Shown here piece by piece: positions 4,148 to 47,471 of a stretch of 64,000 nucleotides of DNA (positions are counted from its first letter, which is position 1; each line of letters starts with the position of its first letter). The stretch is from Deltaproteobacteria bacterium (GTDB lineage Bacteria > Desulfobacterota > Desulfuromonadia > Desulfuromonadales > Geopsychrobacteraceae), in NCBI GenBank assembly GCA_018399135.1, contig JAGYPB010000005.1, positions 1 to 64,000 on the forward strand. The letters run 5' to 3'. The translations under genes and the position numbers were made by a program. The notes under the pieces are model-generated. The model was not told where the DNA came from. It ran no database searches and saw nothing but the letters and a program-made list of their open reading frames with translations.

Positions 4148-4606
4148 ATGAGAACAGTACTTATCGGAACGCTCCTGTTGACGCTGACTGTTGCTACAGG
4201 TTTTGCAGCTGACGGACTTGTCAGTATTGAAAGTTCTTATTCAACCAAGCAGACAATGGATCGACTGGTGGGGATCGTTACGCAAAAGGGGTTAACGGTC
4301 TTTGCGCGGATCGACCATGCCAAAGGGGCGCAGAGTATCGGGAAGGAGTTCCGTCCCACTGAGCTTCTGATTTTCGGAAACCCTCAGGGAGGTACGCCTT
4401 TTATGGAGTGTGCTCAAACCGTGGCCATTGATCTGCCACTTAAAGCTCTTGCCTGGGAAGATCAGCAAGGACAGGTCTGGCTCAGTTACAATGATCCTGG
4501 CTACCTGGCCGAGCGTCACGCCGCCCAGTCTTGTCCGGTTGTCGATAACCTCAGCAAGGCGCTGAACGGTATCAGTCAAGAAACCGTTGCGCTTGAGGGA
4601 AAATAA
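4148..4606 (+). CDS. DUF302 protein, exported
   Basis: A 152-aa protein with a clear signal peptide (MRTVLIGTLLLTLTVATGFA, cleavage near residue 21) and then a DUF302 domain, recognisable by the stretches VQKGLTVFARIDHAKGA-like, PTELLIFGNPQGGTPFM and LPLKALAWEDQQG. The family fold is known but its role is not; it often travels with sulfur or redox genes. AGAAAGGA precedes the ATG. It follows the VTT-flavin oxidoreductase by about 55 bases in the same direction, so co-transcription is likely. Location is probably periplasmic. Confidence 0.85.
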   Translation: MRTVLIGTLLLTLTVATGFAADGLVSIESSYSTKQTMDRLVGIVTQKGLTVFARIDHAKGAQSIGKEFRPTELLIFGNPQGGTPFMECAQTVAIDLPLKALAWEDQQGQVWLSYNDPGYLAERHAAQSCPVVDNLSKALNGISQETVALEGK

Positions 4607-42859: not shown

Positions 42860-43729
42860 TTAATTCTGATTTCCAGCACTCTTCGGAAATTCACGGGCAC
42901 ACAGGGAACTGATCTGGTCTAGATCGGTGCACACACTAATGCCAGGCAGGTGCAATCCATCACGTAAGGCAAACCCTCCGGCGATGATTTTGAGATGCTT
43001 TGGCAGCGTTTTTCGTAGCCAGGCCAAGTCTTGTTTTGCTTGTCGTGGGGTCGTTTGGACACTGAAGGACAGGGCAATGGCATCCGCATTGAGAAAATCC
43101 ACCATGGCGTTAATTTCTGCTACAGGCAACTCTTCAAGGACTAGATGGCACTCGCACCCATGTTGATTGAACAACACTGCTGATAATAGCAGGCCCAGTT
43201 TGTGACGTTCACCGCTCAAGGTCATAAAGATAACCTTTGGTGCAACCTTGCGTGGAATGAGTTGCTCTTTCAGGATCACAGTCAGGCAGTCCGAGAGCAG
43301 ATGCTCGCGTGCAATACTTAACTCTCCGGTCAGCCAGCCACGATCCATCACCGCCAGCAATGGGACTGCAAATTCCAGAACAAAAGCCTCGACACCACGC
43401 TGCTGCAACTGGATCCGCAGCTCCTTTTCGACTTGCGATGCTGCAACAGTTGTGACCAGATATTGCACATCCTGATGACTGTCGTCCGGCTGTTGTTGAT
43501 TCAGTAATTCCATACGTTCAGCAGCAGATAAGGCGAATAGTTGCTTGGGACGATGTCCCATATTCTGAAGTTTTTTGATGATACGCAGGTCGTCAATTTC
43601 TGCCGGCGAATACAGCCGGTGTCCGCGAGCGTTGCGTTCAGGGGTCGGAAAGCCAAAACGACGTTCCCAGACCCGCAGGGTGTCGACGCCAATCCCCAGT
43701 TCCTGACTCAATTGCTGGATGGTGACCAT
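42860..43729 (-). CDS. MerR-family regulator with CarH/LitR-type cobalamin-binding domain
   Basis: A 289-aa regulator. Residues 1-75 are a MerR helix-turn-helix (IQQLSQELGIGVDTLRVWER). The rest matches the adenosylcobalamin photoreceptors: W132 followed by nine residues and E142-H143 (the W-x9-EH signature above the corrin) and GERHKLG with E174 and H176 as the lower-ligand motif. These positions nearly coincide with those of Thermus CarH (W131, E141, H142, H177). In the dark such proteins bind DNA as tetramers; light breaks the Co-C bond and releases them. It is divergent from an operon with renalase-like and SRPBCC genes, frequent partners of such regulators. Confidence 0.88.
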   Translation of the reverse strand: MVTIQQLSQELGIGVDTLRVWERRFGFPTPERNARGHRLYSPAEIDDLRIIKKLQNMGHRPKQLFALSAAERMELLNQQQPDDSHQDVQYLVTTVAASQVEKELRIQLQQRGVEAFVLEFAVPLLAVMDRGWLTGELSIAREHLLSDCLTVILKEQLIPRKVAPKVIFMTLSGERHKLGLLLSAVLFNQHGCECHLVLEELPVAEINAMVDFLNADAIALSFSVQTTPRQAKQDLAWLRKTLPKHLKIIAGGFALRDGLHLPGISVCTDLDQISSLCAREFPKSAGNQN

Positions 43730-43817
43730 TGATTTGTCCTAGACAATGTTATAGTAACTGGATAATATATCAAAAAAAAAGTTTTGCAAACCCGATTGTG
43801 TGAAAAAGGAGACATTT

Positions 43818-44093
43818 GTGGACAAAAAAATTGAGCAACTTTTTTTTATTGCCTTAGGGGGAGCCCTGTCGGTGAAAGAAAAACTTGAAAACAACAGTGA
43901 GGAAGTCAAAAAGTGGCAGAGCGAAGCCGAAGCCAATGCGCGGGCATTTCTCGATGAACTCAGCCAGCGCGGAGCGCAGGAGAAAGATCAGGTGAAAGAT
44001 CTGTTACGTGAGCAGATCAAAGAGGTGATCAACGAGCTCGGTCTGGTGACAAAGGCGGATCTGGAAGAGTTGAAAAAGGATCTGAAAAACTAA
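43818..44093 (+). CDS. Phasin-like helical protein
   Basis: A 91-aa, highly charged helical protein (DKKIEQLFFIALGGALSVKE.., ..LVTKADLEELKKDLKN). The pattern resembles phasin/PhaF-like proteins found next to UbiB-type kinases. A GTG start at 43818 follows AAGGAG by six bases; a GTG at 43800 has no such site. Its stop abuts the GTG of the next gene (TAAGTG). Confidence 0.7.
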   Translation: MDKKIEQLFFIALGGALSVKEKLENNSEEVKKWQSEAEANARAFLDELSQRGAQEKDQVKDLLREQIKEVINELGLVTKADLEELKKDLKN

Positions 44094-45662
44094 GTGAACA
44101 GACTCAGACTCATTGTACATCTTTGCCGGCCAGGGCGCAGCTATGCCGTCTTCAACTTTCTGATGACAGTTTTTTTGCTATTTCGCCGTCGTTCGCGCTG
44201 GTGGTGGTGGCGTCCATTGTCTCCTGATCAACTGGTTGATACCATCCGTATGCTCGGTGCCAGTTTCGTCAAGTTAGCTCAGGTGCTGGCAACTAGAGCG
44301 GATTTTTTTGATGAGGATTATCTTGTCGCGTTACGGCAGCTGCATGACCGCATGCCGGCGATGTCAGCTGTTGACCGATCCCGGGTGTTCCAACGCGCCT
44401 TCAATGATCCGGGTGTTTTTGAATATTTTAACCCTCAACCTCTGGCCAGTGCCTCCATCGGCCAGGTTCATCGTGCACGGTTGCGTGAAGGTGGTCAGGA
44501 GGTAGCGGTCAAGTTGTTGCGTTGGAATATTCGCGTCCAGATCCAGGTGGATATTATTCTGCTCAACCTGTTTTTACGCGTCTTTCGCCCGCTGTTTACC
44601 GATCAGACCCGGCATTCCATCGAATCTGTACTTGCAGCTTTTACCAGGGTTATCCGTCAGGAAGTCAGCATGACCCAGGAACTGGCCAATCTCGAGCTCT
44701 TCAGCGAGACTTACGGTGATGCTGGAGTACGCTTTCCGGTTCCAGTGACCTCCCTGTGCAGTGATGATGCTCTGGTGATGAGTTTTGAAGAGGGCGCGCG
44801 TATTGACGACGTCAACCAGATTGAGACTTGGGGCGTGGATTTTTCCGCACTGATGAAAACCCTGGTGCTTTTTTATACCGAACAGATGTTGGTTAAGGGG
44901 TTTTTCCATGCCGATCCGCACCCCGGCAATCTGCTGGTCACCAGGGAAGGGCAACTGATCCTTCTTGATTTCGGCATGGTCAGCCGAATACCTCAAGATA
45001 TGCGCCAGGCAATGATCTATGCGGTTAAGGCCGCCTACGAGCGTGATTATCAGTTGTTGATTGGCGCGACCCGGCGTATGGGAATGCTGACCGAAGACGC
45101 CGACGGGGGAGACTTAAGCCGGATTGCCGAGAACCTGTTTGCGATCTTCGACAGCGATCATCTCGATGCTGCGAGTATGCAGGGGCTGGCTTTTGGGGTA
45201 TTGGAGGTTCTGCATGACCAGCCCTTCAAGCTGCCTCAGGATGTTATCTATGTCATGCGCGTCAGCTCTCTGATCGAGGGGCTGGGTACTCAGTACGTTA
45301 ATAACTTCAATGGTATAAAGGATATTTTACCGATTCTTAAAGAAAATTTACCGCGTGCATTAGGGGAGGATCGCGGTGTGGTTGAACGGCTTAAACGTGA
45401 GCTGGTCCAATTGCCCCTGACCCTTTCCCAGGCACGTACCGTTATCGAACAGGCACAGCAGGGTGATCTGACGGTGCGGATGGCGCGGCCTGACCGTGAT
45501 TATCTGGTTGAAAAAGTAAGCAGGCAACTGCGTCGACTTGGCCTGATGATTTTCTTTCTGGCGTTGGCCTATTATTTTCAACAGCTGTCGATCCGGTTCG
45601 GCAATGTACTGTCGATTGTTAGCCTGGTGCTGGCTGCCTGGATGCTGCGCTACAAAACATGA
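44094..45662 (+). CDS. ABC1/UbiB atypical kinase family protein
   Basis: A 522-aa ADCK/UbiB-like protein. The nucleotide loop is alanine-rich (LASASIGQVHRA), the VAVKLL lysine follows, and FHADPHPGNLLV with LLDFGMVSR are the catalytic motifs. Two hydrophobic helices close the C-terminus. UbiB-family ATPases support isoprenoid quinone biosynthesis or lipid handling. GTG start at 44094 directly after the phasin-like stop. Confidence 0.9.
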   Translation: MNRLRLIVHLCRPGRSYAVFNFLMTVFLLFRRRSRWWWWRPLSPDQLVDTIRMLGASFVKLAQVLATRADFFDEDYLVALRQLHDRMPAMSAVDRSRVFQRAFNDPGVFEYFNPQPLASASIGQVHRARLREGGQEVAVKLLRWNIRVQIQVDIILLNLFLRVFRPLFTDQTRHSIESVLAAFTRVIRQEVSMTQELANLELFSETYGDAGVRFPVPVTSLCSDDALVMSFEEGARIDDVNQIETWGVDFSALMKTLVLFYTEQMLVKGFFHADPHPGNLLVTREGQLILLDFGMVSRIPQDMRQAMIYAVKAAYERDYQLLIGATRRMGMLTEDADGGDLSRIAENLFAIFDSDHLDAASMQGLAFGVLEVLHDQPFKLPQDVIYVMRVSSLIEGLGTQYVNNFNGIKDILPILKENLPRALGEDRGVVERLKRELVQLPLTLSQARTVIEQAQQGDLTVRMARPDRDYLVEKVSRQLRRLGLMIFFLALAYYFQQLSIRFGNVLSIVSLVLAAWMLRYKT

Positions 45663-45672
45663 TGAGGAAAAA

Positions 45673-45948
45673 ATGATGAATACAACCTATGTTGAAACCC
45701 ACAAAGAGACCATCCTGGAAAACTTACCCGGATTTTTTGCTGAACAACTTGGCGAAAATCCCGAAGGATTGCTTGAACAGCTGGAGCAGGAGCTACGTAG
45801 TCTCTATGTGCGTCAGGGTAATGATTGGACCGGTCGTGGCGAGATTGGCGATGCCAGGCTCGAAGCGACCATAGCCGTGCTTGAAGCAGTACGGGCCGAG
45901 TGTCTGGTGCAGTTGGGGAAACATGGCGACAGCTCGGCTTCCGCATGA
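45673..45948 (+). CDS. Small hypothetical protein in light/B12-type operon
   Basis: A 91-aa helical, acidic protein (ETHKETILENLPGFFAEQLG.. ..GRGEIGDARLEATIAVLEAV). GAGGAAAAA precedes ATG 45673. Its stop overlaps the renalase-like ATG. No family recognised. Confidence 0.7.
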   Translation: MMNTTYVETHKETILENLPGFFAEQLGENPEGLLEQLEQELRSLYVRQGNDWTGRGEIGDARLEATIAVLEAVRAECLVQLGKHGDSSASA

Positions 45949-46901
45949 AAGCAGCAGTGATCGGGGCTGGGATGGCGGGTATAACCATCGCTCGCCAGCT
46001 GCGGGTACAGGGGATGGAAGTAACCCTCTTTGATAAGAGCAAAGGAACCGGCGGGCGCATGTCGAGTCGTTCCTGGCAAGGGGGTTGGATCGATCATGGT
46101 GCCCCTTATTTTGCCGCCCGGACCGAAGAGTTTTATAGCTATCTGCAGGCCCGGATTCCGTCAACAGCCTGTCAGCGCTGGCTGGCGCGGGTACAGGGGA
46201 TTCCCAACAATGATGAGCTCGTCGGCTATATTGGCGTGCCGCGTAACAGCAGCATCACCCGAGGGTTGCTCGGCGATTTAAACTTTCAACCATCAACCCG
46301 TATTGCCAGACTGGAGCGTGAGGGTCAGCGTTGGTTGCTATTTAATGACGGCGAATCCCTGTTGGGAGAGTGGGATATGGTCGTCCTATCCGCACCGGCA
46401 CCCCAGACCTATGCACTGGTGCGTGACATTCCCGAGATCGCCGTTCAGGTCAAAAAAGCAGAGATGGAGCCTTGCTGGGTTGCTGCTGTCCAGTTGTCAT
46501 TGCCTTTGCGTAAAGCCGCTGAGGTCATGATTGACCCGGCTCCGGGTCTGCGCCGGATCGTTGCAAACAGCGCCAAACCCGGACGAAATAATGATGGAGT
46601 CTATCTGTTGCAGGCGACTGCCGACTGGACGCAGGAGCATCTTGAAGGGTCTCCGGAGCAGGTCGGCCCCAAGCTGTGCGAACTGTTTGACCAGAAATTT
46701 ACTCCGGCAAAGCCGCCGGTACTGTTATTCGCTCATCGTTGGCGCTATGCCTTTACCAAAACGGCGCTCGAAAAAGAGTTTTTGTGGGGACGGGGTTTGC
46801 AAATAGGCATATGCGGCGATTGGTGCATTGGTCGCACGGTGGAAGATGCCTGGATCAGTGCCATGGCTTTGGGCAAACGAATCAGTGAAGGTATACAGTG
46901 A
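45945..46901 (+). CDS. Renalase-like FAD/NAD(P)-binding oxidoreductase
   Basis: A 318-aa flavoprotein. The dinucleotide-binding motif is MKAAVIGAGMAGITIARQL, followed by GGRMSSRSW, DHGAPYFAAR and a late FAD motif GDWCIGRTVEDAWISA, as in bacterial renalase-like amine-oxidase-fold proteins. ATG overlaps the previous stop by four bases. Homologues are common in CarH/LitR-controlled photoprotection clusters (established for other bacteria), which fits the divergent regulator. The substrate is unknown. Confidence 0.88.
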   Translation: MKAAVIGAGMAGITIARQLRVQGMEVTLFDKSKGTGGRMSSRSWQGGWIDHGAPYFAARTEEFYSYLQARIPSTACQRWLARVQGIPNNDELVGYIGVPRNSSITRGLLGDLNFQPSTRIARLEREGQRWLLFNDGESLLGEWDMVVLSAPAPQTYALVRDIPEIAVQVKKAEMEPCWVAAVQLSLPLRKAAEVMIDPAPGLRRIVANSAKPGRNNDGVYLLQATADWTQEHLEGSPEQVGPKLCELFDQKFTPAKPPVLLFAHRWRYAFTKTALEKEFLWGRGLQIGICGDWCIGRTVEDAWISAMALGKRISEGIQ

Positions 46902-46994
46902 TCAGAAGGTATTTAGACATGCAGCCAAAAAAGTTACAACTGGGAAAACCACTGCCGGTCATGAGTTGATTAATCAACCTGAAGGAGATATGAA

Positions 46995-47471
46995 ATGCAT
47001 GAACTTCGCCGCGAGATAGTGCTTGATGCTCCTTGTGAGACCCTTTGGGATTTCATAGCTACACCCGAAAACCTTAATCTGCTGACACCACCCGATCTGG
47101 ATTTTCAGATTGTCAGCGACTTGCCGAAACGGATGTACAACGGTTTGCCCATCCTGTACCGGATCCGCATTCCATGGTTCGGTACCCACCGTTGGCTGAC
47201 GGAGATCAAGCATATCCGTGAGGGAGTTTCCTTTGTCGATGAACAGCGTCTTGGTCCCTATCGCCTCTGGTATCACTATCACCAGGTTGAAAGCCTGGGT
47301 CTAAATAAGACGAAAATGATCGATCATGTAACCTATGCACTTCCCTTTGGGCCCATTGGGGATATTGTCCACTCGCTGAAAGTAAAGCAGATGTTAAGGG
47401 ATATTTTCGACTTCCGGCGGGGCAAATTGCTGGAGCTGTTCCCACCCGATATGAATGTGTCGAGTAACTGA
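46995..47471 (+). CDS. SRPBCC (START-like) family protein
   Basis: A 158-aa START-fold protein: LDAPCETLWDFIATPENLNLL at the N-terminus and VTYALPFGPIGDIVHSLKVKQMLRDIFDFR near the end (read in two parts) match the ligand-binding family seen beside photolyases in light-response loci. GAAGGAG precedes the ATG by seven bases. It likely binds a small hydrophobic ligand. Confidence 0.85.
   Translation: MHELRREIVLDAPCETLWDFIATPENLNLLTPPDLDFQIVSDLPKRMYNGLPILYRIRIPWFGTHRWLTEIKHIREGVSFVDEQRLGPYRLWYHYHQVESLGLNKTKMIDHVTYALPFGPIGDIVHSLKVKQMLRDIFDFRRGKLLELFPPDMNVSSN

Follow-up and report, generated by a model that had tools for sequence, protein, structure and literature searches.

A CarH/LitR-type regulator, its predicted operator and a divergent phasin-UbiB operon in Pelovirga (Desulfuromonadales)

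The regulator and the known B12 photoreceptors

The closest described systems are CarH of Thermus thermophilus (TtCarH) and LitR of Bacillus megaterium, class I LitR/CarH proteins that are comprised of a MerR-type helix-turn-helix (HTH), followed by a four-helix bundle and a Rossmann B12-binding domain. The light state of TtCarH uses His132, oxygen is needed to complete the switch, and the H132A variant is still largely tetrameric in the light (PMC10442372). CtMerR of Chloracidobacterium thermophilum (PDB 8JBS/8JBT) is also a MerR protein with a B12 domain and no His132 equivalent; it has Arg at this position, yet monomerises in the light (PMC11796333). Further class I-type loci are found in betaproteobacteria (Thauera, Azoarcus, Thiobacillus, Caballeronia). 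Class II LitR proteins of Pseudomonas (PplR/PmlR) differ in having no cobalamin Rossmann domain and in acting with short-LOV photoreceptors; their regulon includes light-induced phrB, SDR, FAD oxidoreductase and furan-fatty-acid genes (PMC9758184). No report of CarH in the Desulfuromonadales was found in the open literature.

The window, a stretch of 64,000 nucleotides (positions 1 to 64,000 of contig JAGYPB010000005.1, assembly GCA_018399135.1), belongs to a genome of the genus Pelovirga (Desulfuromonadales), whose assembly comprises 2.86 Mb in 153 contigs and is 85% complete. It contains the following features, and all genes named in the initial annotation are open at these coordinates:

42860-43729, minus strand: CarH/LitR-type MerR regulator, 289 aa (sequence, profile and structure matches), with the HTH at residues 3-62 and a four-helix bundle plus Rossmann cobalamin-binding domain at about 83-283
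43734-43746, no strand: predicted operator palindrome TTGTCCTAGACAA, conserved in position at 33 of 35 loci in relatives
43737-43740, minus strand: AGGA, a putative Shine-Dalgarno-like tetramer of the regulator gene, read from the sequence
43740-43768, plus strand: predicted promoter of the divergent operon, -35 TAGACA (43740-43745), 17-nt spacer, -10 TAATAT (43763-43768)
43762-43790, minus strand: candidate regulator promoter TTTGCA, 17 nt, TATTAT, from a consensus match only
43818-44093, plus strand: small helical protein of 91 aa, phasin/BMFP(UbiK)-like; GTG start codon preceded by AAGGAGA
44094-45662, plus strand: ABC1/UbiB-type atypical kinase/ATPase, 522 aa (PF03109, 1.9e-56)
45673-45948, plus strand: 91-aa protein (p91) of a family without Pfam entry, conserved motif LYVRxGNDWTGRG
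45945-46901, plus strand: bacterial-renalase-like FAD oxidase, 318 aa (PDB 4zcc)
46995-47471, plus strand: SRPBCC-type (START-like) protein, 158 aa (weak PF03364)

The best full-length match of the regulator was TtCarH, which aligned from end to end (phmmer against PDB sequences, E 6e-26) at 22-28% identity. In this alignment W132-x9-E142-H143 and G173-E-R-H176 of the regulator correspond to W131, E141-H142 and G174-E-R-H177 of TtCarH, far beyond chance, which agrees with the initial observation that W-x9-EH and E-x-H stand at nearly the CarH residue numbers. All four residues for adenosylcobalamin (AdoCbl), W132, E142, H143 and H176, are kept, and among 33 relatives the equivalents of W131, E141 and H177 are invariant, while that of H142 is present in 32. 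The MerR HTH profile PF13411 matched at 2e-15 and the B12-binding profile PF02310 at 1.4e-5, the latter with a score of 25.3 that lies below the Pfam cut-off of 32.1; the NCBIfam CarH equivalog NF052513 gave 125.7 bits (E 1.9e-36), below its cut-off of 400. With the AlphaFold model (pLDDT 87.5), Foldseek ranked CarH chains first, including a full-length match to 5C8D/5C8E, and the cobalamin domains of photocobilin, CarH and CtMerR matched at Z about 17-18 (about 17.5 for the CarH domain, 16.7-16.8 for CtMerR). Domain order, both motifs and fold are thus common to the regulator, TtCarH and B. megaterium LitR. Its assignment as a full-length class I LitR/CarH-type protein is well supported by sequence and model, and AdoCbl binding is probable from the fold, the alignment and the kept ligand residues, as first proposed. 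No relatives of the regulator were found among viral contigs.

The regulator differs from TtCarH at the position of His132, which aligns with L133; His is found there in 0 of the clade relatives and in 0 of 44 beta- and gammaproteobacterial homologues. Loss of His132 as a mark of anaerobes was ruled out, the beta/gamma homologues being without it too. In terms of the SignatureFinder signature of light-responsive cobalamin-binding domains, EH and GxxH are present and DxxW and LxxxP replace GxxW and GxxxP, the signature glycines being D and L; the whole clade departs from both motifs, whereas the betaproteobacterial homologues keep the glycines and CtMerR, 17% identical over the aligned domain, has the full GxxW/GxxxP signature. 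A strict signature search as in PMC11796333 would therefore presumably miss this clade. Because His132 is missing, the bis-His light form of TtCarH is impossible for the regulator; by analogy, an aquo/hydroxo light state like that of CtMerR is more likely. A light response is compatible with the absence of His132, since CtMerR, with Arg there, monomerises.

The operator and the divergent operon

The palindrome TTGTCCTAGACAA overlaps the -35 box of the operon and the putative ribosome site of the regulator gene: TAGACA lies within the operator, as does the AGGA tetramer, 7 nt before the regulator ATG. In class I LitR/CarH loci the operator overlaps the promoter from which divergent genes are read, and a position over the -35 box is as expected of a repressor. 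The initial annotation had pointed to 43730-43817 as the operator stretch, which was the right place. The operator core occurs in 33 of 35 relatives' loci, nearly always near the regulator start, and in most of these loci TAATAT follows 17-18 nt beyond the operator-overlapped -35 box. If the candidate regulator promoter is used, the operator would fall in the leader of the regulator gene. Conservation at the operator may be partly translational, because AGGA lies 7 nt before the ATG; translation cannot account for the palindrome copies elsewhere in the genome. Of the 34 genomes with the regulator, 26 contain the exact palindrome, compared with 0 of the 113 that lack the regulator (p 3e-22, uncorrected for relatedness); the six genomes that have the UbiB clade and no regulator likewise lack the palindrome. 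Betaproteobacterial regulators, 31-38% identical to the one described here, share the operator type TTGTCnnnGACAA, and this palindrome form was present in 20 of 30 beta/gammaproteobacterial upstream regions. Upstream of beta/gamma regulators two copies often lie about 62 bp apart, for example at five loci, a spacing that suggests cooperative binding or looping. An Rfam search over the whole window gave 0 matches, and therefore no known cobalamin riboswitch at the regulator locus; literature searches on the operator string, and on phasin, UbiB and MerR together, returned nothing relevant.

The first operon product shows weak PF05597/PF04380 matches, the phasin score being slightly above that for BMFP (UbiK), which at 20.5 bits is below its Pfam cut-off of 37.2; seven of 13 orthologues match BMFP weakly. 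A second ABC1 gene, on contig C101, is a different paralogue from the adjacent UbiB gene. An ABC1 ATPase beside a small helical protein with weak BMFP similarity recalls the ubiquinone accessory pair UbiB-UbiK of E. coli, from which the Pelovirga pair differs in the sub-threshold BMFP match, the slightly better phasin match and the distinct UbiB paralogue. The product of 45945-46901 is, by sequence, a bacterial renalase homologue, aligned over residues 3-318 with 4zcc (E 1.1e-51). A structure model of p91 is helical and of low confidence (pLDDT 70), and p91 had no match in a plasmid collection. The p91 family is uncharacterised and consists of helical proteins of 80-115 aa, with members in the window and at six other loci; its genes often stand directly behind the operator, even apart from the regulator. 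The renalase-like, SRPBCC, UbiB-like and phasin-like genes that the initial annotation placed opposite the regulator are all present, and its description of a light-type operon is well supported.

Neighbourhood conservation and operator copies in the genome

Among the relatives that share this gene order, the nearest are Pelovirga genomes, including that of Pelovirga terrestris M08fum. The regulator occurs in 34 of 147 related genomes, and in a regulator tree the 32 Desulfuromonadales rows form one fully supported clade. When operon content was compared across relatives, as first recommended, the phasin-UbiB pair stood directly opposite the regulator at 21 of 35 loci, with renalase at 11, SRPBCC at or near nine and p91 at at least six. 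Phasin and UbiB, considered less usual partners at first, are instead conserved core partners of the regulator in Desulfuromonadales. The operon UbiB clade and the regulator occur together in 26 genomes, where 7.4 would be expected (Fisher p 2e-16, relatedness uncorrected), and the phasin-UbiB pair is also found beside deeper-branching regulator copies; at the 30 beta/gammaproteobacterial CarH loci examined it was found 0 times. Light control is not essential to the phasin-UbiB module, because six relatives keep these genes without regulator or operator. In five relatives a photolyase gene ends the phasin-UbiB operon, and relatives' operons also hold DUF2177, DUF1295, FAD oxidase, DUF1365-CMAS, DUF2878, chalcone-isomerase-like, ADP-ribosylglycohydrolase and RudS-type genes. 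Two genomes (G103 and G082) each have two CarH paralogues, one facing phasin-UbiB-photolyase and the other p91-renalase-SRPBCC genes; combined, both loci resemble the single Pelovirga operon plus photolyase.

The pattern TTGTCCTRGACAA has four copies in the genome (its backwards-read control has 0), all preceding families that recur at CarH loci. Outside the window these are:

C2:57474: operator copy ahead of DUF3833, Chalcone_3, SnoaL, SDR, FAD oxidase, DUF1365, CMAS and DUF2878 genes
C74:13235: operator copy between uvrC and a PNPOx-like gene
C95:19778: operator copy within a short predicted ORF, with a flavin oxidoreductase gene following

The families of the C2 operon are those facing CarH in beta/gammaproteobacteria; in the beta loci these lipid operon families are divergent from the regulator, and in Pelovirga they stand at this second site. 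In Pseudomonas the same kind of light-induced cluster accompanies LitR (phrB, SDR, FAD oxidoreductase, UfaM; PMC9758184). The furan-fatty-acid pathway takes its ring oxygen from O2 and includes the DUF1365 protein UfaO (PMC7380195). In two Pelovirga genomes (L180 and L184, about 4390-4490) a PAS sensor-kinase-type gene diverges from the operator-marked lipid operon and could be a second target. The PNPOx-like family of C74 is also found beside the regulator in relatives, and the target at this site would be the PNPOx-like gene and/or uvrC; an operator between these two genes was seen in two Pelovirga genomes (L181:4236 and L185:4289), and light control of nucleotide-excision repair via the uvrC-adjacent operator is possible. 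The C95 flavin oxidoreductase belongs to a family seen in relatives' operons, and sister species have further operator copies ahead of SRPBCC2-ADP-ribosylglycohydrolase genes. Through the shared site, the operator-marked genes would form a dispersed light-type regulon of the regulator.

The initial annotation had noted no photolyase or carotenoid gene. This holds at the locus; genome-wide, contig C72 carries a photolyase gene (L156:6409-7791), and phytoene synthase was neither found in the 85%-complete genome nor recognised at operator sites. Carotenoid genes are frequent though not universal targets in the CarH/LitR family, and the lack of a recognisable one here is a further difference from TtCarH and B. 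megaterium LitR. The C72 photolyase frame loses similarity toward its C-terminal end (392 bits, against 579-590 in three sister species); the gene is either damaged or mis-assembled, the sister-species copies being intact. A search allowing up to 2 mismatches found no operator close to this photolyase gene in Pelovirga. A PduO-type adenosyltransferase gene is present, and a CobA-type one was not found in the genome.

Pelovirga and these sediment bacteria are usually regarded as strict anaerobes. The earlier view of the host as an obligate anaerobe, which the window itself cannot show, is weakened by genes for aa3 (C81), cbb3 (C96) and bd (C1) terminal oxidases, and by an operator-marked operon with an O2-using UfaO (DUF1365) step. 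With three terminal oxidases encoded, a light response in a Pelovirga cell is less paradoxical.

Proposed mechanism, alternatives and significance

We consider it likely, from the sequence comparisons, that the regulator acts as a photoreceptor-repressor of the class I LitR/CarH type on the phasin-UbiB operon and the other operator-marked genes. In the dark, AdoCbl from the PduO-type adenosyltransferase would bind the regulator, and the AdoCbl-bound oligomer would sit on TTGTCCTAGACAA, which covers the operon -35 box plus the regulator leader and ribosome site; it would thereby block both the phasin-UbiB-p91-renalase-SRPBCC operon and the regulator gene itself, so that autorepression is expected. 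Green or blue light would break the Co-C bond, the oligomer would fall apart and the operon would be derepressed, together with the DUF3833/chalcone-isomerase-like/SnoaL/SDR/FAD-oxidase/DUF1365/CMAS lipid operon, the PNPOx-like gene and/or uvrC, and the flavin oxidoreductase gene. The products may shield the membrane lipids and quinone pool, and repair DNA damage, when light, probably combined with oxygen, reaches these sediment bacteria. Counting against this reading are the Pfam B12 and NCBIfam CarH scores below their cut-offs, the replaced GxxW/GxxxP glycines, Leu in place of His132 given the behaviour of TtCarH H132A (PMC10442372), and the window genome's photolyase gene without operator.

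Sensing of AdoCbl supply or of cobalamin redox state instead of light, the AdoCbl form repressing and AdoCbl loss (through oxidation or corrinoid limitation) derepressing, is unlikely, though it fits several observations: the ligand residues are intact but His132, which TtCarH requires for its full light state, is absent, most hosts come from dark sediments, and the co-regulated enzymes would be as useful under oxidative stress as in light. Against it, photolyase is in the regulon of some relatives, light induces homologues of regulon genes in Pseudomonas (PMC9758184), the annotated loci and operator sites hold no recognised gene family for cobalamin synthesis or transport, CtMerR monomerises in light without the histidine (PMC11796333), and AdoCbl-bound proteins are all photolabile. 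Light sensing by the regulator is strongly favoured on the comparative evidence. Less probable still is a degenerate B12 domain, with the regulator depending on a partner protein or another ligand like the class II LitRs (PmlR2/PplR with short-LOV proteins), which govern similar genes without B12 (PMC9758184); the sub-threshold Pfam and NCBIfam scores would agree with this, but the regulator, in contrast to class II, retains a complete Rossmann domain together with the histidine that ligates cobalt, which is invariant in 33 relatives, and comparison of its model with CarH cobalamin domains gave Z 17-18. A classical MerR-type activator untwisting a long promoter spacer is very improbable despite the MerR-type HTH, because the spacer is 17-18 nt and not 19-20, which favours repression as in CarH, and because the palindrome overlaps the -35 box and does not lie between -35 and -10.

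The initial annotation had included neither the operator, nor the other regulon members, nor the absence of His132. The CarH/LitR system itself is real, well conserved and lineage-specific in its output. Under the photoreceptor-repressor reading, it would extend CarH/LitR light control to the Desulfuromonadales and tie it to a conserved quinone/membrane module (phasin-UbiB-p91-renalase), and the operator makes an annotation guess a testable regulon. It also gives the p91 family (NDWTGRG motif) a first functional context. Because the clade is without the TtCarH switch residue, the system bears on B12 photoreceptor signalling without bis-His ligation, and under anoxia. Tentatively, it may represent a B12 photoreceptor lineage tuned to little or no O2, which would signal without the His132 switch or the O2 oxidation step and would light-induce genes for quinone handling (UbiB with its UbiK/phasin-like partner, renalase) and for the protection of lipids in sediment bacteria that reduce metals and sulfur.
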